This document shows, one piece after another, positions 7,674 through 43,364 of a stretch of DNA of 64,000 nucleotides. The DNA comes from Microbacterium sp. zg-Y1090. Its GTDB lineage: Bacteria; Actinomycetota; Actinomycetes; Actinomycetales; Microbacteriaceae. Location: positions 1,364,001 through 1,428,000 of the forward strand of contig NZ_CP126742.1 of the NCBI RefSeq assembly GCF_030246945.1. The letters are read 5' to 3'. Positions within the stretch are counted from its first letter, which is position 1, and every line of letters starts with the position of its first letter. The notes under the pieces are model-generated. The model was given only the letters and a program-made list of their open reading frames with translations, searched no databases and had not been told where the DNA came from. The position numbers and the translations under genes were made by a program.

Positions 7674-8536
7674 GTGCGCGCTCCCTTCGGGCCGAAGCCC
7701 AGCATTGCCCTCGCTGCGAGCGTAGCCTTCACCGGGTCGGGCACCCGCACGCGGGTGTCGGTTCCCTCGCCGCCGGCGGCGCGCAGACGCGCCGCCAGGC
7801 TCGCGAAGAGATCGTGGGCCGCCGTCACGGCGCGGCGGCTGTCGGCGGGGAGCAGCGGCACGACCGCCGCCGCAGCGGCGAGGTCGGCGTCGATGCGGTC
7901 GAGCACCTCGGCGCGGGTCGCGCCGCCCGCGCGCACGCCGAGGTAGTCACGTCCCAGTGCCCCGGAATCGTGCGAGAGGTCGCGCAGGAAATTGACGTCT
8001 TGGAAGGCCGCTCCGAGTCGTCGCGCGCCGTCGACCAGCGCGGGGGAGGGCGTGGTGGGAGCCGGCGCGCCGGCGTTGACGAACACCTGCAGGCACATCA
8101 GTCCCACGACTTCGGCGGAGCCGTACACGTAGGCGTCGTGGCTGGAGGCATCGTGCGCGGCGACGTCGAGGTCGGTGCGCATCGATGCGAAGAACGGCCG
8201 CACCAGGTCGGCGCCGATGCCGGTCTCGCGCGCGGTGCGGCAGAACGCGTGCACGATGAGGTTCGCCGAGAACCCTCTGGTGAGGGCGGTCAGCGTCTCG
8301 GCCTCGAGTTCGTCGAGCACCCGGCGCAGCGTCTCGGGTGCGAGCCCCGCCTCGGCCCCCGGGCCGTCGACGATCTCGTCGGCCACCCGCACCAGCGCGT
8401 ACACATTGCGGACGTGCCCGCGCACCCGCGCGCCGAGCAGTCGCGTCGCGAGCGAGAACGACGTCGAGTAGGCCGAGATGATGGTGGCGGCGGCGTCGCG
8501 CGCCGCCCTGTCGTAGAGGTCCAGACCCGTACTCAC
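7670..8536 (-). CDS. crtB: Phytoene synthase
   Basis: 288 aa squalene/phytoene synthase family. Both Asp-rich motifs are present: RVADEIVDG (DxxxD form) in the N-terminal half, and AAFQDVNFLRDLSHD in the C-terminal half, a typical signature 2. It should join two GGPP from CrtE into phytoene. The GTG at 8536 was chosen because it forms a GTGA overlap with the crtE stop and gives the standard family length. The frame is open further upstream, but there it runs through crtE in another frame. Confidence 0.93.
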   Translation of the reverse strand: MSTGLDLYDRAARDAAATIISAYSTSFSLATRLLGARVRGHVRNVYALVRVADEIVDGPGAEAGLAPETLRRVLDELEAETLTALTRGFSANLIVHAFCRTARETGIGADLVRPFFASMRTDLDVAAHDASSHDAYVYGSAEVVGLMCLQVFVNAGAPAPTTPSPALVDGARRLGAAFQDVNFLRDLSHDSGALGRDYLGVRAGGATRAEVLDRIDADLAAAAAVVPLLPADSRRAVTAAHDLFASLAARLRAAGGEGTDTRVRVPDPVKATLAARAMLGFGPKGART

Positions 8537-9591
8537 GGGATGCGTGCTCCGATCGCGTCGCAGAGTTGCGCCAGCAGCAGCGTCGCAGGCGACGGCAGTG
8601 CATCGTCGGCGGCGGCGACCCTGGCTTCGGCGAGCGTACCCTGCACGAGCTCGACCAGGCGGGTGCGCGCGCCGCTGGCATCCAGCGCGCGCTGCGCGTC
8701 GCGCACCGCGACGGGGCCGGTCCACGCCAGCGCGATCGCATCGTCGACCTGTGTCCAGGCCGCGCTCTCCCGGGCGAGGGAGACCAGCGGCGTCCGCTTC
8801 GCGGCACGGAGGTCCGCGCCCTCCGCCCGTCCGGCCTGCGCGGCGGGGGAGAAAGCCCCGATGAGGTCGTCGACGAGCTGGAACGCGAGGCCCGCCAGAG
8901 CGCCGGATCGGCCGAGCGCGGCGTCGGTGGCAGCCGGTGCGCCGGCCAGCGCCGCGCCCGCTCGCAGCGGAGCGGCGAAGGAGTACACGGCGGTCTTGTC
9001 GTGCGTCGTCACCAGCAGCTCCGCGGTGTCGGGGCAGTCCTGCCGCACTGCGTTCGACACGTCCGAGAGCTCACCCGCCGCCGAGACGAGAACAGCGTCG
9101 TCGAGCAGGTCGAGCAGGGCGGCGCGCGCGGCGGAGGGCAGCTCGGCGAGGGCGATCATGCGGGTCGCCTCGTGCAGCAGCACGTCTCCGGCGAGGATGC
9201 CTGCCGTCTCTCCCAGCAGGTTCGCTCCCGTGTCCGGCACGCCCTGCGCTCGGGCGCGGGCGGCGAACTCCCCGGCGACGTTGGGCTCCCCCCGACGCTC
9301 GGTGTCGCGATCGATCACATCGTCGTGGACGACGAACGCGGTGTGGAGCAGCTCGAACGCGGCGGCGACCTGGAACACCGGGTCGCCGGGCGCCTCACCG
9401 CCGCAGGCGCGGTAGGCGGCCACGACCAGTGCGGGGCGGAATCTCTTGCCGCCGGCTGCTGCGCGGCGCATCGCCCCGGCGAGGGGGCGCATGTCGCCCG
9501 TGAGGGACTCGAGCCGACTGTCGAGGCGATCGAACGCGGCGTCGATGGCGCCGTCGATGCAGGCGCGGTCCTGCGCCGAGAGGGGGATCAC
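8533..9591 (-). CDS. crtE: Geranylgeranyl diphosphate synthase
   Basis: 352 aa polyprenyl synthase. The first Asp-rich motif is HDDVIDRD and the second is FQLVDDLIGAF; GGKRFRPALV is the basic substrate-binding motif. It should build C20 GGPP from IPP and DMAPP and feed CrtB. The last D of motif two is replaced by G (DDLIG), a form often seen in actinobacterial members and not by itself a sign of lost function. The GTG at 9591 overlaps the idi stop (GTGA). The longer open frame upstream of it is antisense-free shadow within idi. Confidence 0.92.
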   Translation of the reverse strand: MIPLSAQDRACIDGAIDAAFDRLDSRLESLTGDMRPLAGAMRRAAAGGKRFRPALVVAAYRACGGEAPGDPVFQVAAAFELLHTAFVVHDDVIDRDTERRGEPNVAGEFAARARAQGVPDTGANLLGETAGILAGDVLLHEATRMIALAELPSAARAALLDLLDDAVLVSAAGELSDVSNAVRQDCPDTAELLVTTHDKTAVYSFAAPLRAGAALAGAPAATDAALGRSGALAGLAFQLVDDLIGAFSPAAQAGRAEGADLRAAKRTPLVSLARESAAWTQVDDAIALAWTGPVAVRDAQRALDASGARTRLVELVQGTLAEARVAAADDALPSPATLLLAQLCDAIGARIP

Positions 9592-31679: not shown

Positions 31680-34469
31680 TCATTCCTCCCGCGTCACTTC
31701 GTCCGGCGTCTTGTCGGGACGCAGGCCGCGCCAGCGCGCGTGACGGAGCGTGCCGCCCGGGGTGAACTCGGCGTACTCGACTTCCGCGACGGTCACGGGG
31801 CGCACCCAGAGCGCGTCGGAGGCGTCGGCGCGGGGGATGCCGACGAACGGGTCGGCGTCGGTGCGCAGCGGGGTCAGAGTCTCGTCGAGCCGCGCCAACG
31901 TGCGGTCGCTGAACCCCGAGCCGACGCGGCCGACGTACTGCAGGCCGTCGGGGCCGGGGATGCCGAGCAGCAGGGAGCCGATCGACCCGGTGCGGCCGCC
32001 CTTGCCCGGCCGGATGGCCCCGATGACGACCTCCTGCGTGTGCGTGATCTTGACCTTCAGCCAGTGCTCTGAGCGCTGCCCGCGCCGGTAGGTCGAGGCG
32101 GGGTCCTTGACCACGAGACCCTCGAGACGGTGTCGACGCGCGGTGGCCAGGGCGGTGTCGACGTCATCGAGCACCGGCGGGACGTCGATCCGCGGCGGGG
32201 CGGTGGGAAGGGTGTCAAGCAGTCTGCGCCGATCGCGCAACGGGAGGGTCGTCACGTCGCGTCCGTCGTGGGCGAGGACGTCGAAGAGGTACCAGGCGGT
32301 CGGGGTGCGAGCCGCCTCACGGGCGATGTCCCGGCTGCCGGTGAGGTGCATTCGGTTCTGCAGCAGGGAGAAGCTCGGCCGCCCCGTCTCGTCGAGGGCC
32401 ACGATCTCGCCGTCGACGACGACGGGCGTCGGGCCGAACGCGGCGGCCGCGGCTTCGGTCAGCTCCGGATACCGGGCGGTGATGTCGGTTCCGTTGCGGC
32501 CGCGCAGGTGCAGGGTCGTGCCGTCCCAGGCGCCGAGCGACCGGATGCCGTCCCATTTCAGCTCCGCCCACGCCCCGCCGCCGTTCCACCGGCCGGCGGC
32601 CTCCTTTGCACGCGCCGCGGTCGATGCTGTCGCCAGCATCGGTCGAAGGTCGTCGTCGTGGCGAGCCGTGGTGCGCGCAAGGCCATCGTCATCCTCGCCC
32701 GACCCGCGAGATTTCCGTTGTCCTCTCGATTCGTCATGTGAGTTCCCGCTCACACGGTGGCCGGGCGCGGTGTGTTTCGGGCCCGCGCCCCCCTCCACGG
32801 CACCGGTCAATTCGTCATGTGACTTCCCGCTCACACGATCACCGGGTGAGCCCTCGCTCACACCCTCGCCGAGCGGGTCGTCGGTCTGATTCCCGCCGGG
32901 TGACTTCCCGCTCACACGGTCGGCGTCGGCCGGGGGGCGGTGCGCGGTGGCGTCGGCCGTGGGGCGATGCGCGGAGGTGTGGTGTGAGCCGGAACTCACA
33001 TGACGAATCAAGAGTGTCGGAGATTTTGAGGCGCCGGACGGGGCGCCGGCATGCGGGGGGCGCGCGGCGGCGACAGCGCCCCCGGCCGCGGTGGGCTTCA
33101 TCCGGTGCATCAGCCAAGTCGACTTCTCGCCGGCTCCGTCGGTGCGGATGAGCGCCAGCCGCACGTCGCCGAGTGGCCCGCCCGGCCTCCCGTGAACGGT
33201 GAGGATGATCTCGTCGTCCCGCCACTTCTCGAGATCGTAGACGCCCTCGTCCCAGATCGTGACCGTGCCCCCGCCGTACTCGCCGCGCGGGATCTCCCCC
33301 TCGAACGCGGCGTACTCCAGCGGGTGATCCTCGGTCATCACGGCGAGGTGATTGCGGTCCGGTGATTCGGGCACGCCCTTGGGCACCGCCCAGCTGACCA
33401 GCACGCCGTCGCGCTCCAGCCGGAAGTCCCAGTGCAGCCGTGAGGCGTGATGCTCCTGGATCACGAAGCGGGGCAGGCCGTCTCCGGCCGCACGGCCGCC
33501 GAGCGCGTTGGCCGGGACGGGCTCGGGGGTGGCTCCCGCCGTGCGCTTGGCGATGTAGGTGGCCAGCGGCCCCGCCGTCGATGCCCGGGCGCCCGCCGCG
33601 AACCCCAGCGGGGCGATCGGGTCCTCTCCCGCCTCCACACGGGCGAGCACCTCGCCCAGCAGGAGGTGTCGCAGATCGGGGTCGTCGAGCTCCGCCCACG
33701 TGCGCGGCGCCGCCACCGTGGGCTGTTCGCGACCGCGCAGGGAGTAGGGCGCGATCGTGGTCTTCGAGCCGTTGTTCTGGCTCCAGTCGATGAACACCCG
33801 CCCGGTGCGCTGCGCCTTGGCCATCTGGCTCACGACGAGGTCGGGATGGTCCGCCTCCACGGCTCTGGCCAGTTCCCGCGCCACGATCGTGATCTGCTCG
33901 CTCGTCTGCGTCCCCGGCAGCGCCGCATAGAGGTGGATCCCCTTGCTGCCGCTGGTCACCGGGTACGGTTCGAGACCCATGTCCGTCAAGATCGCGCGGA
34001 GCAGCCGCGCGACCTCCGCGCACTCCGCCAAGCCCATTCCCGGGCCCGGGTCGAGGTCGAGCACGATCCGGTCGGCGGCAGCGCGGCCGCCATCGGGGGC
34101 GAACCGCCACTGGGGGACGTGCAACTCCAGGCTCGCCACCTGAGCCAGGTACACGAGCGTCGCGCGATCCTCGACCAGCGGATAGTCCTTCGCGCCGGTC
34201 GAGTGCGCGATCGGCATCCGCTTCACCCAGTCGGGCGCGCCCGGTTCGAGATCCTTCGCGAAGAAAGACGGGGCATCGACACCCTCGGGCCACCGTTTGC
34301 GGGTGACCGGTCGCCCCGTGATCTGCGGGATCATCGCCGGAGCGACCCGGGTGACGTAGTCGATCACCTCGCCCTTGGTGGTGCCGGTGGCGGGGTAGAG
34401 GACCTTGTCCAGGTTCGTCAGACGCAGCCGGCGACCGTCGATGCGCACGAGCTGACCCTCACCTGCCAT
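31680..34469 (-). CDS. ligD: Multifunctional ATP-dependent DNA ligase D (polymerase-phosphoesterase-ligase)
   Basis: 929 aa NHEJ enzyme in the order polymerase, 3'-phosphoesterase, ligase. The polymerase domain (about 10-300) has the catalytic DLDPG at 138-142 and SGSKGIHLYA. The phosphoesterase domain (about 330-470) has FVIQEHHASRLHWDFRLERD and IPRGEYGGG. The ligase domain (about 615-929) has the nucleotide-accepting Lys in AELKWDGIRS, then VVDGEIVALDE and EGLVVKDPAS. The linker (about 487-580) is unusual: it is made largely of five copies of a 20-30 bp palindromic DNA repeat, yet the frame stays open. It works with Ku, encoded divergently 60 bp away. The ATG is preceded by a TAGCCT box at six bases. 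Confidence 0.95.
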   Translation of the reverse strand: MAGEGQLVRIDGRRLRLTNLDKVLYPATGTTKGEVIDYVTRVAPAMIPQITGRPVTRKRWPEGVDAPSFFAKDLEPGAPDWVKRMPIAHSTGAKDYPLVEDRATLVYLAQVASLELHVPQWRFAPDGGRAAADRIVLDLDPGPGMGLAECAEVARLLRAILTDMGLEPYPVTSGSKGIHLYAALPGTQTSEQITIVARELARAVEADHPDLVVSQMAKAQRTGRVFIDWSQNNGSKTTIAPYSLRGREQPTVAAPRTWAELDDPDLRHLLLGEVLARVEAGEDPIAPLGFAAGARASTAGPLATYIAKRTAGATPEPVPANALGGRAAGDGLPRFVIQEHHASRLHWDFRLERDGVLVSWAVPKGVPESPDRNHLAVMTEDHPLEYAAFEGEIPRGEYGGGTVTIWDEGVYDLEKWRDDEIILTVHGRPGGPLGDVRLALIRTDGAGEKSTWLMHRMKPTAAGGAVAAARPPHAGAPSGASKSPTLLIRHVSSGSHHTSAHRPTADATAHRPPADADRVSGKSPGGNQTDDPLGEGVSEGSPGDRVSGKSHDELTGAVEGGAGPKHTAPGHRVSGNSHDESRGQRKSRGSGEDDDGLARTTARHDDDLRPMLATASTAARAKEAAGRWNGGGAWAELKWDGIRSLGAWDGTTLHLRGRNGTDITARYPELTEAAAAAFGPTPVVVDGEIVALDETGRPSFSLLQNRMHLTGSRDIAREAARTPTAWYLFDVLAHDGRDVTTLPLRDRRRLLDTLPTAPPRIDVPPVLDDVDTALATARRHRLEGLVVKDPASTYRRGQRSEHWLKVKITHTQEVVIGAIRPGKGGRTGSIGSLLLGIPGPDGLQYVGRVGSGFSDRTLARLDETLTPLRTDADPFVGIPRADASDALWVRPVTVAEVEYAEFTPGGTLRHARWRGLRPDKTPDEVTREE
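32728..33009. repeat. Five palindromic repeat copies inside the ligD linker
   Basis: Unit, read on the minus strand: GTGTGAGCGGGAACTCACAT followed by GACGAATC; its core GTGAG-N6-CTCAC can form a hairpin. Copies on the plus strand: 32728-32757, 32809-32838, partial 32844-32863, partial 32898-32919, and one inverted copy at 32982-33009. Direct copies encode RVSGNSHDES/RVSGKSHDEL-like peptides; the inverted one encodes LIRHVSSGSHH. No stop codon is introduced. Confidence 0.85.
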
Positions 34470-34475
34470 GTCAGC

Positions 34476-34481
34476 AGGCTA
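34476..34481 (-). promoter_or_regulatory. -10 box TAGCCT of ligD, leaderless type
   Basis: TAGCCT on the minus strand ends six bases before the ligD ATG. A plus-strand TAGGCG at 34494-34499, six bases before a GTG at 34506, may be the opposing ku box. Confidence 0.5.
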
Positions 34482-34529
34482 GTGCGCAAGCTCTAGGCGT
34501 GACGGGTGGGGCAGGTGTTCACTGGGATC

Positions 34530-35516
34530 ATGAGGGCGATCTGGAAGGGCGCGCTGACCTTCGGACTGGTGAACGTGCCGGTGAAGGTCTACTCCGCGAC
34601 GGAAGACCACGACCTGCCGCTGCACCAGGTGCACGCCGCCGACGGCGGACGCATCCGGTACCAGCGGATCTGCGAGATCGACGGCGAGGTCGTTCCCTAC
34701 GCCGACATCGACAAGGCCTACGACGACGGCGACCGCACGGTCGTGCTCACGAAGGAGGACATCGCGTCGCTGCCGGCCGAACGCAGCCGCGAGATCGATG
34801 TCGTCGAGTTTGTCCCGAGCGAGCAGGTGGACCTGCTCACCCTCGACAAGGCCTACTACCTCGAACCGGACTCCGCCTCACCCAAGGCGTACGTGCTGCT
34901 GCGCAGGACACTCGAGCAGACCGACCGCACCGCGATCGTGCGGTTCTCGCTGCGGCAGAAGACACGCCTGGCTGCGCTGCGCGTGCGCGGAGACGTGCTG
35001 GTGCTGCAGACGCTGCTGTGGGCGGACGAAGTGCGCGAGGCGTCTTTCCCGTCGCTGGACGAGTCGGTGCGCATCTCGGCCAAGGAGCTCGAGCTGTCCG
35101 CCAGCCTCGTCGAGAGCTTCGCCTCCGACTTCGACCCCGAAGACTTCGCCGACGAATACCAGCAGGAACTGCGTACACTCATCGACGCGAAGCTGGAGCA
35201 GGGCGATGCTCTGGACACCTCCCAGACCTTCGGCGAGACGGAGGAGCCGGAGTCCGGCGGCGAGGTCATCGATCTGATGGCAGCGCTGCGTGCCAGCGTC
35301 GAGCGCTCGCGGGCGGCGCGGGGCAACGCGCCGTCCACGAGCGACGAGCCGGCGGAGACCCCGGCTCCGAAGAAGGCCGCGGTGTCGACCGCCAAGAAGG
35401 CGTCCGGGAAGAAGTCGCCTGCGAAGGAGGCGCCTGCCAAGAGCGCCCCCGCCAAGAAGGCGCCCGCGAAGAGCGCGCCCGCCAAGAAGGCGACGGCGAA
35501 GAAGAAGGCCAGCTAG
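34530..35516 (+). CDS. ku: Ku DNA end-binding protein
   Basis: 328 aa. The bacterial Ku core starts MRAIWKGALTFGLVNVPVKV and continues with RIRYQRICEIDGEVV and DKAYYLEPD, through about residue 255. The C-terminus (about 280-328) is an Ala/Lys/Pro-rich tail with repeated KKAPAKSAPA, a DNA-binding or LigD-recruiting extension seen in actinobacterial Ku. It binds DNA ends and recruits LigD. The ATG at 34530 was chosen because Ku proteins normally begin at MRAIWKG; a leaderless GTG at 34506 (adding eight residues) is a real alternative. Its stop codon shares the tetranucleotide CTAG with the convergent DedA gene's stop. Confidence 0.93.
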   Translation: MRAIWKGALTFGLVNVPVKVYSATEDHDLPLHQVHAADGGRIRYQRICEIDGEVVPYADIDKAYDDGDRTVVLTKEDIASLPAERSREIDVVEFVPSEQVDLLTLDKAYYLEPDSASPKAYVLLRRTLEQTDRTAIVRFSLRQKTRLAALRVRGDVLVLQTLLWADEVREASFPSLDESVRISAKELELSASLVESFASDFDPEDFADEYQQELRTLIDAKLEQGDALDTSQTFGETEEPESGGEVIDLMAALRASVERSRAARGNAPSTSDEPAETPAPKKAAVSTAKKASGKKSPAKEAPAKSAPAKKAPAKSAPAKKATAKKKAS

Positions 35517-37420: not shown

Positions 37421-38113
37421 TCAGGCGCCCGCGGGCACCGGGGTGAGCGACTCCAGAACAGCCGCGCGCAGGCGGGCGGGCGCGCGGTCACCGCCGGCGC
37501 GATGCGTGACGCGACCGGGCAGCATCGCCGCCGCCGACGGAGCGGACGACCCCCACCCGCACAGCTGCACGGCGAGGGCGAGCTCGGCGCCGTCCGTCGC
37601 GGGCGCGGAACGGCACACCTTGCCCGGGTGACCGGGAAGGATGAGCCCGCGGGCGGCGGCGACATCGTGCAGCGCCGCGGTGCGGAACATCGTGGCGCTC
37701 CCCGTGATCACGCTCGCCTTCCCGCTGACGACGCCGAGGTCGTCGTCGCGCGCGAACTCCCGCAGCGCAGTGGCGATGAACTCCGCCGGCATCCGCGTCT
37801 CGGCCGTGAGGATGAGCACGAACGTCGGCGCATGGCCCTCCCCCTGCGCCAGCGCCTCGTCGACGGCGGCGGCCGTGTCTGCCGTGGTGATCACCCGGGC
37901 TCCGTGGGCGACGGCGGCGTCGATGGCCTCCTCGGCGTCCGGCCTCGTGAGAACGGTGACGCGGCGTGGGACGACCGTCTGCAGCGCCATCGCATCCAGG
38001 ACGGACAGCACGCCCGACGGGTCGTCGTGGGCGGCGACGAGCACCGCGAGGTGAGACCCTCCGATCCGCCGGTGCGGTCGCCGGGCGCGGAGGGGGTGCA
38101 GGGGGAAGGTCAT
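37421..38113 (-). CDS. Shrunken, probably inactive paralog of the GT2 at 39368-40498
   Basis: 230 aa. It aligns along its whole length with the GT2 encoded two genes upstream: LAVLVAAHD to LAVLIPAHN, QTVVPRRVTVL to QTAVPRRVVVV, and ITGSATMFRTAALHDVAAAR to VTGTASMFRTAALREVAAAR. Catalytic parts are lost. D-A-D is T-A-E (residues 103-105), T-E-D is TDGAE (173-177), about 32 residues before the ITGSATMF motif are deleted, and the QxxRW motif and membrane helices are missing. The reading frame is intact and codon use looks normal. It is therefore not a plain pseudogene; a regulatory or sugar-binding role is possible. Confidence 0.75.
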   Translation of the reverse strand: MTFPLHPLRARRPHRRIGGSHLAVLVAAHDDPSGVLSVLDAMALQTVVPRRVTVLTRPDAEEAIDAAVAHGARVITTADTAAAVDEALAQGEGHAPTFVLILTAETRMPAEFIATALREFARDDDLGVVSGKASVITGSATMFRTAALHDVAAARGLILPGHPGKVCRSAPATDGAELALAVQLCGWGSSAPSAAAMLPGRVTHRAGGDRAPARLRAAVLESLTPVPAGA

Positions 38114-38147
38114 GATCGGATCTCGCTTCTGGGTGATGCGGCCGACA

Positions 38148-38187
38148 CTCGGGCCCCGGGGCGCGCGGGGCGTCCCCGGGGCCCGAG
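38148..38187 (-). terminator. 14-bp hairpin after the surface-protein gene
   Basis: CTCGGGCCCCGGGG and its exact complement with a 12-base loop, lying between the surface-protein stop and the shrunken GT gene on the same strand. It could end transcription or reduce expression of the downstream gene. Confidence 0.6.
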
Positions 38188-38192
38188 GCCGG

Positions 38193-39113
38193 TCAGCTGC
38201 GGGCGGCGCGCCGCCCTGCGACGAGCGCCAGCCCGAGGCCGAGCGCGCCGGCACCGGCGAGTGCGACGGGCACTGCGGTGCCGGAACCACCCGTGTACGC
38301 CAGCGTGGCCGGGGCGGCGCACTCGACGGCGGGGTGGTGCACCTCCCTGGTCACGGCAGGGACAGCGGGGGTGCCGGGGACGCCGGGAACGGCGGGCTGG
38401 AACTCCTGGTCCACGACGGTGACCTCCTCAGTCACCGCCGGGTGCTCCACGGTGTGGGTCTCGGCCGGGTGCTCCACGGTGTGGGTCTCGGCCGGGTGCT
38501 CCACGGTGTGGGTCTCGGCCGGGTGCTCCACGGTGTGGGTCTCGGCCGGGTGGTGCACCGTCGTGGTCACGGCTTCGAGGTAGAACCAGTCGCCGTTGCC
38601 TGAGCCGCCGTGGGAGCGGTAGTACGCGCCCTCGTGGCCCACGCCGTGGGGGTCGCCCTTCACATTGGGCTGCCAGTCGGCGCCCGGGAAGGCCGGCGGG
38701 TCGTCGGAGAGGTGCGGGCCGCCGGTCCACGAGTAGCGCTGCCAGTGGTCGAACACCTCCTCGTCCCAGGCCTCCCTGTCGACGACGGTCTCGGTCCAGG
38801 CCTCCTTGTCGACGACGGTTTCGGTCCAGGCCTCCTTGTCGACGACGGTTTCGGTCCAGGCCTCCTTGTCGACGACGGTCTCGGTCCAGGCCTCCTGGAT
38901 GACGCGGGTCTCCAGGTGGCTCACCTCGGGGACCTCCGGCACGCCGGGGATCTCGGCGACGGCGGGCACCGCGGGGGTCACGAGGACCGTCTCGGTCCAG
39001 GCAGCCCGCGGAACGCACGGGGCGTCCGCAGCCGGTGCCGCGGACGCGCCGAGCATCAGCGGGCTCGCAGCGATGACGAGCGCCGCAGTGGCGCTCGCGA
39101 CCTGCTTTCTCAC
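38193..39113 (-). CDS. Repeat-rich cell-wall surface protein with LAYTG sorting signal
   Basis: 306 aa. A signal peptide spans about 1-26 (MRKQVASATAALVIAASPLM, cut near ASA/AP). Then comes a Pro/Val-rich part, four tandem 10-residue units EAWTETVVDK/R (74-113) with a fifth degenerate one, and a compact Trp/Gly/His-rich domain (about 122-185). Four units of HPAETHTVE follow (188-223), then another Pro/Val part, LAYTG at 271-275, a hydrophobic helix and RRAARS. The ending is a classic sortase signal of the LAxTG type used by class E sortases. GTG at 39113 has AGAAAGGAG upstream. It is probably displayed on the wall; the ligand and function are unknown. No sortase gene is in the window. Confidence 0.88.
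   Translation of the reverse strand: MRKQVASATAALVIAASPLMLGASAAPAADAPCVPRAAWTETVLVTPAVPAVAEIPGVPEVPEVSHLETRVIQEAWTETVVDKEAWTETVVDKEAWTETVVDKEAWTETVVDREAWDEEVFDHWQRYSWTGGPHLSDDPPAFPGADWQPNVKGDPHGVGHEGAYYRSHGGSGNGDWFYLEAVTTTVHHPAETHTVEHPAETHTVEHPAETHTVEHPAETHTVEHPAVTEEVTVVDQEFQPAVPGVPGTPAVPAVTREVHHPAVECAAPATLAYTGGSGTAVPVALAGAGALGLGLALVAGRRAARS
38445..38552 (-). repeat. Four 27-bp tandem repeats encoding HPAETHTVE
   Basis: Four units, identical at the DNA level, in phase with the reading frame of the surface protein. Near-identity at synonymous sites suggests recent expansion or homogenisation. Confidence 0.9.
38770..38889 (-). repeat. Four 30-bp tandem repeats encoding EAWTETVVDK/R
   Basis: Four units differing only at one or two positions (K/R change and one T/C), in phase with the surface-protein frame. 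Copy number is likely to vary between strains. Confidence 0.9.
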
Positions 39114-39146
39114 CGCAACTCCTTTCTGTCGTGATGGGTGGGTCAG

Positions 39147-39167
39147 CCCGCGGGCACTGCCCGCGGG
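39147..39167 (-). terminator. 9-bp hairpin between mini-protein and surface-protein genes
   Basis: CCCGCGGGC-ACT-GCCCGCGGG lies just after the stop of the 53-residue gene and 34 bp before the surface-protein GTG. There is no T-run, so attenuation or RNA stabilisation is as likely as termination. Confidence 0.5.
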
Positions 39168-39172
39168 ACGCA

Positions 39173-39334
39173 TCAGGGCTCGGTGCGCGCCTTGCGGCGC
39201 ATCCGGACGACGCGGCCGACGGAGAGGGCCGCGAGCCCGGCGACGAAGAGGGTCCAGCCCGCCACCCAGGTGTGGGCGAGCGCGGCGCCGGTGGTGGCGA
39301 GCACCCCGGATGCGGTGCTGTTGAGCTGGTACAT
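39173..39334 (-). CDS. 53-residue membrane mini-protein with LATTG sorting-like motif
   Basis: A gene too short for most callers. The peptide starts MYQLNSTASGVLATTGAALA, continues with one hydrophobic helix (about 22-43), and ends with the basic tail VVRMRRKARTEP. LATTG at 12-16, then a helix, then Arg/Lys is exactly the order of a sortase sorting signal, but there is no signal peptide and only 11 residues precede the motif. GGAAGAA lies eight bases before the ATG. It sits between the GT2 and the LAYTG surface protein on the same strand. It might be a sortase-related decoy, a cleaved peptide or an accessory membrane protein; the role is unknown. Confidence 0.65.
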   Translation of the reverse strand: MYQLNSTASGVLATTGAALAHTWVAGWTLFVAGLAALSVGRVVRMRRKARTEP

Positions 39335-39367
39335 GGATGGGTTCTTCCGGAAGAGAGGGGGTCCCGC

Positions 39368-40498
39368 TCAGCTGGAGGGGACGAAGAGGGGTGACTCGTG
39401 TGCGGTGACGTGGTTCCAGGCGGTGTCGCGGCGCAGCAGCGCCAGCGCGACGGCGTGCACGAACGCCGCCTGCAGGGCGATGTCATAGGCGATCTCCGGC
39501 AGCACGGCGGCGGCGAGCATCCGGGCGCGTGGTCCGCCCGGCCACACGGTGATGACGCGCTCGACGATGAAGACGCCGCCCACGGCGAGCCAGAATCCGC
39601 TCACGGCGAAGGTGCCGGTGGCGACCGACAGCGCGGTCAGCAGCAGCAGCGTGGCGATCGTGAGGATGCCGACGAGGATCATCGCCTGCTGGCCGAAGTA
39701 GCGCAGCGTGACGCGGGAGACGCCGTACTCGCGCAGGTTGTCGAGCATGCCCTTGTACCAGCGCACGCGCTGGCGATGCAGATCGCCCCAGGTGGGCATG
39801 AGCTCGGTGGTGCAGACGCATTCCTCCGGCGCAACCATCCGCCAGCCGCACGTCTTGAGGGCGAGGGTCAGCTCGGAGTCCTCGGTGATGGCGCCGCGGT
39901 CGTAGACGTCGCCGCGGGTGCCCGGCAGGAGATCACCTCGGGCGGCGGCGACCTCGCGCAGCGCCGCGGTGCGGAACATCGACGCGGTGCCGGTGACGAC
40001 GCTCACCCGTCCGGTGGCCCGGATCTGGGTCCCGTAGCGGACGTACTCGTTCGCCTGGAACTGCTGCAGCATGCTCATCGGCCGCTCGCCGACGAAGAGG
40101 CCGCTCACGGCGCCGAGTGCGTCGTCTGCGTTCAGCGCGGCCAGGGACACGTCGATGAACTGCGGGTCCAGGCGCGTGTCGGCATCGACGACGAGGATGA
40201 AGGGCGGCGCGTCGTCGCCCAGCGCTGCGAGCGCCTGATTGAGCGCACCGGCCTTGCGGTCCGTGTTGTCACGGGTCACCATGACGTCGGCCCCGTGGGC
40301 GGCAGCGACGTACCCCGTGGCGTCCGTGCAGTTGTCGGCGACGACCACCACGCGTCGGGGCACCGCCGTCTGCCGCGACAGGGCGTCGAGCGTCTCGGCG
40401 ATGGCGTCGGCTTCGTTGTGCGCGGGGATGAGGACGGCGAGCTCGCTCGCGCGTACGACGCGCCGCGAGGACGGGAGGGGCCGTACCGTCGGGCTCAT
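39368..40498 (-). CDS. Processive-type GT2 glycosyltransferase with membrane helices
   Basis: 376 aa. The GT-A domain has LAVLIPAHNEADAI, the substrate Asp in VVVADNCTDA, D-A-D at 105-107 (VVDADTR), T-E-D at 205-207 (AITEDSEL), and QRVRW at 243-247. These together mark the processive branch of family 2 (PgaC/IcaA, hyaluronan and cellulose synthase type). The C-terminus has about three or four helices (about 268-355). It should make or extend a membrane-attached polysaccharide, or glycosylate the neighbouring surface protein. The ATG at 40498 was chosen; an in-frame GTG at 40525 is possible. Confidence 0.87.
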   Translation of the reverse strand: MSPTVRPLPSSRRVVRASELAVLIPAHNEADAIAETLDALSRQTAVPRRVVVVADNCTDATGYVAAAHGADVMVTRDNTDRKAGALNQALAALGDDAPPFILVVDADTRLDPQFIDVSLAALNADDALGAVSGLFVGERPMSMLQQFQANEYVRYGTQIRATGRVSVVTGTASMFRTAALREVAAARGDLLPGTRGDVYDRGAITEDSELTLALKTCGWRMVAPEECVCTTELMPTWGDLHRQRVRWYKGMLDNLREYGVSRVTLRYFGQQAMILVGILTIATLLLLTALSVATGTFAVSGFWLAVGGVFIVERVITVWPGGPRARMLAAAVLPEIAYDIALQAAFVHAVALALLRRDTAWNHVTAHESPLFVPSS

Positions 40499-40748: not shown

Positions 40749-43364
40749 TCAGACCAGCCCGATGAGGTCCTCGCGCGTCTTCACGCCGAGCTTGCGGAAG
40801 ACGCGGTAGAGGTGGTTGTCGATCGTCCGCTCACTGACGACCAGCCGCTCGGCGACTTCCCGGTTGGTCAGGCCCGCGGCGATCAGATGGGCGACCTCGC
40901 GCTCGCGGGGTGTCAACACGGATTCCGGGTCGAGACGTGCCGACAGCACCAGCGAGAGGTCGTCGCCTGCGGCGTGCACGGCACGGCGCAGGTGGAGCGA
41001 TTCCCGCGCAGCGGCGTCGGAGCGCCCTTCCTGACGCAGGTAGCGCACCGCCATCGCGTGTGCACGGGTGGCGTAGAGCACGAGGCCCGCATCGCGGAGG
41101 ACGTCCGCCGCGGCGAGCAGCCGTTCGGGTGAGTGATCGCCCGCGCCCTCGAGGAAGGCGCCCATCGCCGGCATGATCGAGCCCTGACTGGCGAAGGCCA
41201 CCTGTGCCGCGCGGGCCGTGCGTTCCCCGTCCACATGCAGCTCCAGCAGCCGCACCGATTCGAAGACGGCGGCCAGGAGGTGCCCGTCGTCGATGAGGGT
41301 GGTGACCTCCTCCCACGCACCGGCGGTCGCCTCGTCGGCGGGCACACCGCGGGCGAGGGCGAGCGCCGCGGCAGTGGCGGCGGGGCTCATGTACGGGAAG
41401 GGCCCCGCGCTGAGGCCCAGCGCGTCGAGCTGCACGACCATGTCGTGCGCGCTGTCGAAGGCGCCTTCCCACAGGGACAGACCGGCGCTGATGGAGAGCA
41501 GGCCGGCGCGGGCCTCAGGGGCGAGGACGGCAGGGGCGTTCACAGCGAACAGGCTCGTCAGATGGTCGCGCAGGGTGCCGAGCCGCCCCTGCAGGAAAAG
41601 TCCGAGCGCCACCACGTAGCCGTAGGGCTCGATTCGCGTGCGGTCGAGGGTGCCGCGGGCGAGGTCGAGCTGCCGCTGCGAGCTCTGTATGGCGCCGGCG
41701 ATGTCGCCGTCGCAGAGCTGGGCGAGCGGTATCACCGAGTAGGGATCGCGGCGCAGCGGGTCGGCGGGGGAGAGGTCGGCGAAGTCGGCGACCGCGTCGC
41801 TCGTGCGCCCGCCACTGAGCAGCACCTCGCCGCGGACGAGCCGCACGATGTCGACGGCGTTCCAGCGCGGCAGCCCCGAGGTCTGCAACGGCCGGGCCAG
41901 CTGGCGCACCTGCTCGATCTCGGCCGGTCGCGGGTAGGCCGGCAGCTCAGCCGTTCCCAGTCCGGGCAGCATCAGGCGCAGATGCTGCTCGACGGCGGAG
42001 ACGGCGGCGCCCGAACCGGGGATCTCGTGAGCCGTCTGCGTCAGCAGGTCCATCGCCTGGTGCGTTTCGCGGCGGCTGGTCGCGCGGTACACGACCTCCC
42101 ACAGCCGCAGCCGCAGGGCGTCACGGTCCGCCGGCAGCTGCGCGGTGCGTGCGGCGGCGAGCACGTCGTCGATCTCGTGGTCGTCGGCGCCATCGTCGAG
42201 GAGCGCCTGGACGTAGGCGACCGCGGTGAGCGCCCCGGGTCGGGCCTCCCACTGCGCCCGGGACTGGGTCACGCGTCGTGCGGTCTCCTCGTGCAGCACC
42301 CGCCCGAGGATCGCGGCGGCCTCAGGCGACGAAGACCAGCGGTTCGGCGCGTGGAGGGGCGGTCGCGGGCTCTGACCGGGCAGGGCAGTGGACGCATCCG
42401 TCTGCGTGCGCGCTTCTGCGACGCGGTCGGCGGCGGCCCGCCCGCGAGCGGCCGGCGCGCGATGCCGCAGATAGTCCTCCAGAACCGGGGGGAACAACGC
42501 GGCCACGGGACCGCGATCGTCGTCGACGAAGCGGAGCAGGCCGCGGTCGTCGAGCGCGGTGAGGATCGACCACGGCAGCAAGCGCCGCACCGTCACCAGG
42601 TCGGTGGGGCCCAGCTCCGCCAGTACCCAGCATCCCTCGCGCTCGGCTTCGCTGAGTCCTTCGGTGAGTTTCACCAGGGTCGCCGCGAGCCCTCTGCTCC
42701 ACAGGTCGCGCTCAGCCGACCAGCGCTGGCCGCGCTGCACCAGACCGCCCGCCTGCCGGGCGGTGAGGGTGATCGCGCGGGCGATGCCCGGCAGTCCCCC
42801 CGACAGGGCGTAGACGCGACCCGCGGCGTCGGCGTCGACGTCGCCGCCGAGGGTGTCCGACACGAGACGGTGGATCGCCTCGAACGACGCAGGCGGAATC
42901 CACAGTGCGGTGGCCTCGCGCCGCGCCAGGACGGTGTCGACGGCCGCTGCGCCGGGGTAGGGCGGCCGCACGGTGATGACGACGGTCACAGCGGGGTCGT
43001 CGGCTGCCGCAGCGAGCACGGTCGCCGAGGCTTCGTCCAGGCGATCGCCGTCCGAGACGAGCAGCAGCACCGGCGCGGACCCCGCACGCGACGACAGAGC
43101 CTGTGCGGCGCCGAGGGGGGTCAGCGCGCCGCTGTTGGGCGCGTGGATGCCGGACAGGGCGAGTGACTCGAGCGGGCGACCCGCCGCCCCGTGTCCCGTG
43201 AGGGACCGTACGGTCCATTCCTCGCCCGCCATGACGTCGCCCACGAGGCGGAGCGTCTCCCGCCGGCCGGCGCCGGGCAGCCCCACCACCACCACGCAGA
43301 TGCCGGAGCGCACCGACTCCGCGATCGTGCTGACCAGCCCGGAGCGCGGAGACGGCGTCGCCAT
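40749..43364 (-). CDS. Large LuxR-type regulator with degenerate P-loop (MalT/LAL-like)
   Basis: 871 aa. The C-terminal LuxR helix-turn-helix (about 810-871) is clear: LTPREREVAHLIAAGLTNRE and VSERTIDNHLYRVFRKLGV. The N-terminus is an ATPase-like domain, but its Walker A is GLPGAGRRE (28-36), with Arg-Arg in place of Lys-Ser/Thr; a Walker B-like VLLLVSDGDRLDE follows. The middle (about 400-790) is helical and Ala/Leu-rich, like the repeat domain of STAND regulators. It lies directly upstream of the GT2/surface-protein genes on the same strand and may control them. CATAGT six bases before the ATG could be its -10 box. Confidence 0.85.
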   Translation of the reverse strand: MATPSPRSGLVSTIAESVRSGICVVVVGLPGAGRRETLRLVGDVMAGEEWTVRSLTGHGAAGRPLESLALSGIHAPNSGALTPLGAAQALSSRAGSAPVLLLVSDGDRLDEASATVLAAAADDPAVTVVITVRPPYPGAAAVDTVLARREATALWIPPASFEAIHRLVSDTLGGDVDADAAGRVYALSGGLPGIARAITLTARQAGGLVQRGQRWSAERDLWSRGLAATLVKLTEGLSEAEREGCWVLAELGPTDLVTVRRLLPWSILTALDDRGLLRFVDDDRGPVAALFPPVLEDYLRHRAPAARGRAAADRVAEARTQTDASTALPGQSPRPPLHAPNRWSSSPEAAAILGRVLHEETARRVTQSRAQWEARPGALTAVAYVQALLDDGADDHEIDDVLAAARTAQLPADRDALRLRLWEVVYRATSRRETHQAMDLLTQTAHEIPGSGAAVSAVEQHLRLMLPGLGTAELPAYPRPAEIEQVRQLARPLQTSGLPRWNAVDIVRLVRGEVLLSGGRTSDAVADFADLSPADPLRRDPYSVIPLAQLCDGDIAGAIQSSQRQLDLARGTLDRTRIEPYGYVVALGLFLQGRLGTLRDHLTSLFAVNAPAVLAPEARAGLLSISAGLSLWEGAFDSAHDMVVQLDALGLSAGPFPYMSPAATAAALALARGVPADEATAGAWEEVTTLIDDGHLLAAVFESVRLLELHVDGERTARAAQVAFASQGSIMPAMGAFLEGAGDHSPERLLAAADVLRDAGLVLYATRAHAMAVRYLRQEGRSDAAARESLHLRRAVHAAGDDLSLVLSARLDPESVLTPREREVAHLIAAGLTNREVAERLVVSERTIDNHLYRVFRKLGVKTREDLIGLV

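Follow-up and report, generated by a model that had tools for sequence, protein, structure and literature searches.

Organization of the locus

We analyzed a 64,000-nucleotide stretch of Microbacterium sp. zg-Y1090 (contig NZ_CP126742.1, positions 1,364,001 to 1,428,000; here called the window), whose genome is a single contig of 3.07 Mb. Our subject is a gene for a family 2 glycosyltransferase (GT2) and the tiny gene that follows it, whose product we call the mini-protein. A first-pass annotation had described four same-strand genes with short gaps and a large LuxR-type regulator upstream. All four open reading frames (ORFs) were confirmed on the minus strand, with intergenic gaps of 33, 59, and 79 bases (Table 1). 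Third-position GC content was 0.91 to 0.96 across the four genes, which therefore look coding, and 0.89 in the LuxR gene; the sole terminator-like site found between 37200 and 40800 is on the plus strand. The GT2 carries intact DAD (residue 105), TED (residue 205), and QRVRW (residue 243) motifs, in line with its earlier assignment as a processive enzyme. The mini-protein consists of MYQLNSTASGVLATTG, followed by a membrane helix and a basic tail.

Table 1. Features of the locus, in window coordinates
Feature	Coordinates	Strand	Remarks
GT2, hyaluronan-synthase fold, without N-terminal membrane helices	39368..40498	-	376 aa; DAD, TED, QRVRW intact
Mini-protein, GT2 partner	39173..39334	-	53 aa; MYQLNSTASGV-LATTG-membrane helix-RMRRK; adjoins GT2 in related loci
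LATTG sorting motif of mini-protein	39287..39301	-	from sequence; LAxTG is a class E sortase signal (PMC5148588)
Repeat protein, lineage-specific accessory	38193..39113	-	306 aa; signal peptide by eye; LAYTG anchor
LAYTG sorting motif of repeat protein	38289..38303	-	from sequence
27-base repeats (HPAETHTVE), x4.3	38437..38552	-	inside repeat protein
30-base repeats (EAWTETVVDK), x4.4	38766..38896	-	inside repeat protein
Catalytically emptied GT2 copy	37421..38113	-	230 aa; without C-terminal helices; alignment and tree
Large LuxR-type regulator, upstream of GT2	40749..43364	-	871 aa; GerE 62 bits

The GT2 and the mini-protein are paired

A family-level search of 199 genomes with the GT2 found strong relatives in 18, the source genome included. 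Loci were examined at 17 kb in 15 of the 17 others, two on short contigs being left out. In twelve of these loci the GT2 was longer, being extended at the N terminus, and had no small gene beside it; two (G040 and G171) carried the mini-protein directly downstream of the GT2, and in one (G046) the GT2 had an extra C-terminal helix. Profiles of the mini-protein were built from the loci of this search, and later searches used the mini-protein sequence alone. Counting the source genome each time, they matched 8 of 296 genomes in the class, 19 of 198 in the genus (20 matches), and 8 of 346 in the phylum; the three samples overlap and gave 33 matches outside the source genome in total.

Neighborhoods were examined for 24 of the 33 matches. 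Within the genus, 11 of the 20 matched loci were covered (the source genome, G428, G452, G445, G403, G478, G417, G783, G812, G837, and G462). The nine left out had values of 5.4e-8 to 9.3e-6 and open frames of 214 to 5805 aa; one is a second match in G837, and another, in G832 (5.4e-8), scored better than the examined match in G462. In 23 of the 24 examined loci, a GT2 of this kind immediately preceded the mini-protein gene. An orphan mini-protein with the motif LAMTG was observed as a second copy in G727 (L110), with no GT2 within the 17 kb fetched.

In named genomes scanned with an alignment of the GT2s, the mini-protein was directly downstream in all 80 GT2 relatives kept, as judged from ORFs of 35 to 110 aa whose start fell between -60 and +500 bases relative to the end of the GT2 gene; the gap between the two genes ranged from -32 to +90 bases, with a median of 6. 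These 80 were picked from 228 relatives by likeness to mini-associated GT2s, the other 148 being left out, and the sample is biased toward mini-bearing GT2s because the query was built from mini-associated GT2s. Carriers include Microbacterium, Rathayibacter, Herbiconiux, Arthrobacter, Pseudarthrobacter, Paenarthrobacter, Promicromonospora, and Citricoccus, as well as Streptomyces, Jiangella, Amycolatopsis, Pseudonocardia, Geodermatophilus, Micromonospora, Nonomuraea, and Microbispora. The spread of the pair is thus wide but thin. Scanning the named genomes with the single G171 mini-protein matched 593 stretches, none of which was confirmed, and this route was abandoned.

Adjacency in 23 of 24 and 80 of 80 loci rules out chance proximity, and the pairing itself is virtually certain. 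It also bears out the earlier suggestion that wall anchoring and glycosyl transfer belong together at this locus. We found no published study of the pair in the open-access literature.

Features of the mini-protein family

Mini-proteins are 50 to 75 aa long. They start with MY and have an uncharged head, followed in most by LAxTG, then a single membrane helix and finally a basic tail. Among the 80 from named genomes, 78 begin with MY, the third residue being N in 56, D in 13, Q in 6, and S in 3. Mini-proteins without the MY start are L179, L138, and L150, and the head of L189 is frame-broken. An [LMI][AP]x[TS]G motif is present in 69 of the 80 and missing from 11, and the head ahead of it has a median length of 17 residues (range, 7 to 21). 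Across 95 distinct sequences, M and Y are conserved at 98% and the motif G at 97%, A and R at the helix end are found in all, and F and P at the helix end and tail are kept at 0.95. Charged residues make up only 30 of 1383 positions in 82 heads, with 2.3 Ser/Thr per head, and the last 14 residues contain on average 3.9 Lys/Arg. By the positive-inside rule, an uncharged head and a basic tail should place the head outside the cell. The window copy has LAxTG, a hydrophobic helix (hydrophobicity peak, 1.58), and a basic tail; no signal peptide was seen by eye, and only 11 residues precede its LATTG.

The GT2 lacks the N-terminal helices of its longer relatives

An AlphaFold2 model of the window GT2 (predicted local distance difference test score [pLDDT], 88.3) matched hyaluronan synthase and BcsA (Foldseek, VIA-align) and contains the C-terminal channel helices and the overall processive GT2/hyaluronan-synthase fold. 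In the alignment with hyaluronan synthase, 323 residues superimposed at 2.9 A with 14% identity. Since this match begins only at residue 79 of hyaluronan synthase, the first two transmembrane helices (TMH1 and TMH2) are absent from the window enzyme. The 80 GT2 relatives from named genomes all have Q[RK]xRW, and none of the 80 has a hydrophobic stretch at the N terminus. Conversely, all 16 longer relatives with N-terminal helices are without a mini-protein; these helices were identified by alignment in 14 of the 16, the other two having extensions of similar length.

Evidence for homology between the mini-protein and helix 2 of the longer enzymes is no more than suggestive. A GT2 tree, rooted with a very distant outgroup and built without the emptied copy and without the first 170 residues of a fused GT2 at the distant locus L070, gave no order of origin for the mini-protein and the N-terminal helices. 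The related GT2 of G046 (L072, 8294-9775) has an extra C-terminal helix ending in RLVPVR that resembles a fused, motif-less mini-protein. This helix matched the mini-protein with 9.9 bits as a fragment and 6.3 bits in full-length context, which hints at a possible C-terminal fusion; the G046 gene had no match in two congeners at 1e-30.

The sorting motif and sortases

LAxTG is the signal of class E sortases, whose substrates include the Streptomyces chaplins (PMC5148588). The link to class E sortase drawn in the first-pass annotation held up: the window motif is of this kind, and the genome encodes a class E sortase scoring 248 bits (cut-off, 160), together with a class F-like sortase at 125 bits (cut-off, 166). 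The motif varies by lineage, being mostly LAxTG, with LPITG in G590 and LPETG in three genomes from beyond the class (G949, G969, and G979).

A sortase is the next gene in nine mini-protein loci. A class E sortase directly follows the mini-protein in G590 (L150) and in Citricoccus (L228). Divergent from the GT2 are a class F-like sortase in G553 (L109; 66 bits, below the cut-off) and class F sortases above the cut-off in Nonomuraea (L227 and L229), Microbispora (L230), and Microtetraspora (L234); L232 and L233 have the same divergent arrangement, judged by tblastn position. In the mini-proteins of L227, L229, L230, L232, L233, and L234, [ST]APF replaces LAxTG; standing beside class F sortases in Nonomuraea, Microbispora, and Microtetraspora, it may represent a new sortase site. 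Four further loci had a sortase match 6 to 8 kb away, and none was detected in 16 control loci with longer GT2s; the flanks compared were unequal, ~8 kb in control loci and 4.5 kb in most named loci.

We also surveyed sortases in 42 distinct genomes, counting the identical G452 and G1194 once and leaving out the L227 genome. A class E sortase above the cut-off was present in 25 of 30 motif-bearing and 8 of 12 motif-less genomes. The motif-bearing genomes below the cut-off comprised two with 136 and 140 bits and the three LPETG genomes with ~70 bits. No class E match at 1e-10 was obtained in 3 of the 12 motif-less genomes (two Pseudonocardia and one Nonomuraea) versus 0 of the 30 motif-bearing ones; the motif-less Actinomycetospora had a class E match of 48 bits only. 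A complete lack of class E matches thus occurs only among motif-less genomes, and the motif co-varies with sortase, though loosely.

Neighboring genes

Next genes were taken from 102 loci (101 downstream and 100 upstream) and deduplicated to 62 and 61, with downstream L178 left out. Counting the commonest 25 of 75 families downstream and 25 of 67 upstream, the 61 downstream and 61 upstream genes included, respectively, two and two sortases, six and two response regulators, one and one polysaccharide deacetylases, and five and four LuxR-type (GerE) genes. Downstream genes also included two GH26 proteins and one Wzz-like chain-length protein; the remainder were mixed. In Pseudonocardia (L193), a NodB-type deacetylase gene overlaps the end of the mini-protein gene, and genes resembling UDP-glucose dehydrogenase, epimerase, and deacetylase were recognized by eye upstream at L070. 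To judge from these annotations, the neighborhood would fit a surface polymer that is sometimes deacetylated. A LuxR-type gene lay within 3.5 kb in 16 of 106 mini-protein loci and 1 of 16 control loci, which is unconvincing as a sign of membership in the unit beyond the window's own lineage.

Elsewhere in the window (31680-35516), the genes for a LigD-like ATP-dependent DNA ligase (929 aa, minus strand) and for a Ku-like protein with a Lys/Ala-rich tail at its end (336 aa, plus strand) are arranged head to head; read by eye, they are a bacterial end-joining pair.

A putative two-part polymer synthase with a sortase site

We think it probable, if only narrowly so, that the pair is a polymer synthase in two parts, the smaller of which contributes a helix to the channel and presents a sortase site where the polymer comes out. 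This proposal builds on the observed genes, their adjacency, the motif, the predicted fold, the missing N-terminal helices, and the nearby sortases. The GT2 and mini-protein would together form a membrane-embedded polysaccharide synthase of the hyaluronan-synthase fold, in which the GT2 polymerizes sugar in the cytosol and threads the polymer outward. The mini-protein, oriented with the head on the outer side of the membrane and the basic tail in the cytosol, would replace the second membrane helix of hyaluronan synthase and help to form the channel and its outer exit; the head and LAxTG would therefore sit where the polymer emerges. A class E sortase, or one of another class in some lineages, could then cleave LAxTG between T and G and link the head to peptidoglycan. 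In this way the head would become attached to the wall, perhaps together with the polymer, or the position of the synthase would be marked. A repeat protein anchored in the wall and a dead copy of the GT2 may be later acquisitions of the window lineage. The complex, the channel role, the topology, the cleavage, and the polymer are what we infer here.

More tentatively, and as a possibility that we hold to be doubtful, the detached channel helix with its sortase signal would make this a sortase-anchored polysaccharide synthase: one GT2-mini-sortase unit might perform synthesis, export, and covalent wall attachment of a polymer across Actinomycetota via a peptide of 11 to 25 residues, with the class of sortase and its site changing jointly from lineage to lineage. 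Such a joint swap would be exemplified in Nonomuraea, Microbispora, and Microtetraspora, where an [ST]APF-type site goes with a class F sortase.

The mini-protein might instead be an acceptor: the GT2 would add a sugar or chain to the head (at Tyr2 or at N/S/T), sortase would fix the glycopeptide to the wall, and the helix would serve only for sorting. The near-invariant MY start, the nearly uncharged heads with their Ser/Thr residues, the match of motif to local sortase in most cases, and the nine sortases next door would all suit such a role. However, motif-less mini-proteins still keep MY and the helix, and conservation at the helix end and in the tail equals that at the start of the head, which is more than a sorting signal alone would require. 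Moreover, the active site of a GT2 of this fold faces the cytosol, and the positive-inside rule would put the head on the other side of the membrane. We consider this explanation unlikely.

A little below it we place the view that the mini-protein is a plain activating subunit like PgaD/IcaD, with LAxTG a relic or packing motif that sortase leaves uncut. The pairing does outlast loss of the motif (the 11 motif-less cases among 80, and L138 and L151), and the G046 enzyme has a mini-like C-terminal helix lacking the motif. Against it stand the retention of the motif in 69 of 80 proteins, with a free x position and LA/LP shifting by lineage, the adjacent sortases of two classes, and the finding that only motif-less genomes lack any class E match.

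Later additions to the locus

The first-pass annotation had treated the four genes as a unit. It had also considered the last of them catalytically emptied, which alignment to the GT2 upheld: DAD is replaced by TAE, TED by TDG, and QRVRW by APARL, and ~30 residues ahead of the VTGTA block are gone. By tree path, the copy is nearest to the GT2 of its own lineage, a placement without support. No orthologue was found among 99 genus genomes, in which the copy is thus present in one; nine genomes matched, the eight others via ordinary or intact GT2s. L088 and L093 were rejected as orthologues on account of their retained DAD.

The repeat protein was present in 2 of the 99 genus genomes, those of the window and G428. 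In G428, the LuxR gene, GT2, mini-protein (LATSG), and a 94% identical repeat protein occur without a dead copy. Its GT2 (L087, 7653-8549, in a one-contig genome) has an in-frame deletion of residues 230 to 338, which takes out QxxRW and membrane helices. In G837, the LuxR (51%), GT2 (70%), and mini-protein (67%) lie beside a VTT gene; there was no match for the repeat protein, nor for the dead copy apart from that genome's own GT2. The order LuxR-GT2-mini is thus kept in both congeners. Synonymous divergence between the window and G428 was 0.14 for the repeat protein, 0.21 for the GT2, and 0.38 for the mini-protein, lower than for ctaA (0.44) and LuxR (0.57), which suggests exchange of the stretch between species. 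The repeat protein and the dead copy look like recent additions, and we infer that the GT2-mini pair arrived first, followed by the repeat protein and then the dead copy, with losses possible.

At the distant locus L070, a degenerate GT2 domain fused to the N terminus of an active GT2 (7784-9382), a mini-protein, and a large LAYTG repeat protein stand in a row; this is a second dead GT2 beside this kind of enzyme. As L070 holds the same four kinds of part, the theme recurs. The window repeat protein had no tblastn match there at an E value of 1e-3, which leaves the two large LAYTG proteins without a sign of kinship. Membership of the window's emptied copy and this fused GT2 domain in a single family was considered and set aside on account of long branches and the lack of a supported placement.

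A conserved four-gene unit is therefore rejected: the GT2 and the mini-protein are an old pair, whereas the repeat protein and emptied copy do not belong to it; overall, the first reading is partly supported. Its functional proposal, in which the repeat protein is either glycosylated by the GT2 or holds a polymer of the GT2's making and the emptied copy acts as helper, can overlap with the other explanations and draws on the compact same-strand arrangement and on L070, but we regard it as quite improbable, given that the pair is widespread while the repeat protein and emptied copy are rare in the genus and unmatched (for the former) at L070, and that preservation of the repeat protein beside a truncated GT2 in G428 speaks against the enzyme acting on it there.

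Implications and comparison with known systems

The pair may point to a mechanism, not yet described, by which surface polymers are built or anchored. If our proposal is true, it would join two separate fields, that of sortases in protein anchoring and that of membrane-embedded polymer synthases. The channel of a polymer synthase would be split over two genes, its outer end being a sortase site, and Gram-positive bacteria would have a new route to tie polysaccharide to peptidoglycan. The tiny LAxTG proteins, as yet known only under a generic family name, would also acquire a function.

That name comes from the NCBIfam model NF058583, LAXTG_small_WW (LAXTG motif-containing small protein; length, 54), which makes no mention of a GT2. 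It is a distant model of the mini-protein: many MY-start sequences align from position 1, and none of 22 mini-proteins scanned reached the cut-off of 65 (best, 37.6 for L183; window, 16.1; three without a match at the thresholds applied). In 398 family genomes it gave no match above the cut-off, and with 312 of them matching at an E value of 0.01, it was dropped as a search model as too unspecific.

With the chaplins, the mini-protein shares LAxTG, a hydrophobic stretch, and a basic tail. Unlike class E substrates such as these (PMC5148588), it has no N-terminal signal peptide, and the part left of the cut would be only 11 to 25 residues long (a head of 7 to 21 plus LAxT).

Class I hyaluronan synthases (Chlorella virus HAS, 8sne/7sp7; Xenopus HAS1, 8smn) have the GT2 fold, C-terminal membrane helices, DxD, and QxxRW in common with the window enzyme, which, unlike them, has as its partner a distinct protein with one helix and a sortase motif. 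PgaCD and IcaAD are two-part poly-N-acetylglucosamine synthases. The best NCBIfam match of the window GT2 was PgaC_IcaA at 75 bits, far below the TIGR03937 equivalog cut-off of 422.3, and, like the window pair, these systems combine a processive-type GT2 with a small membrane protein encoded alongside. PgaD and IcaD differ from the mini-protein in having two helices and no known sortase motif.

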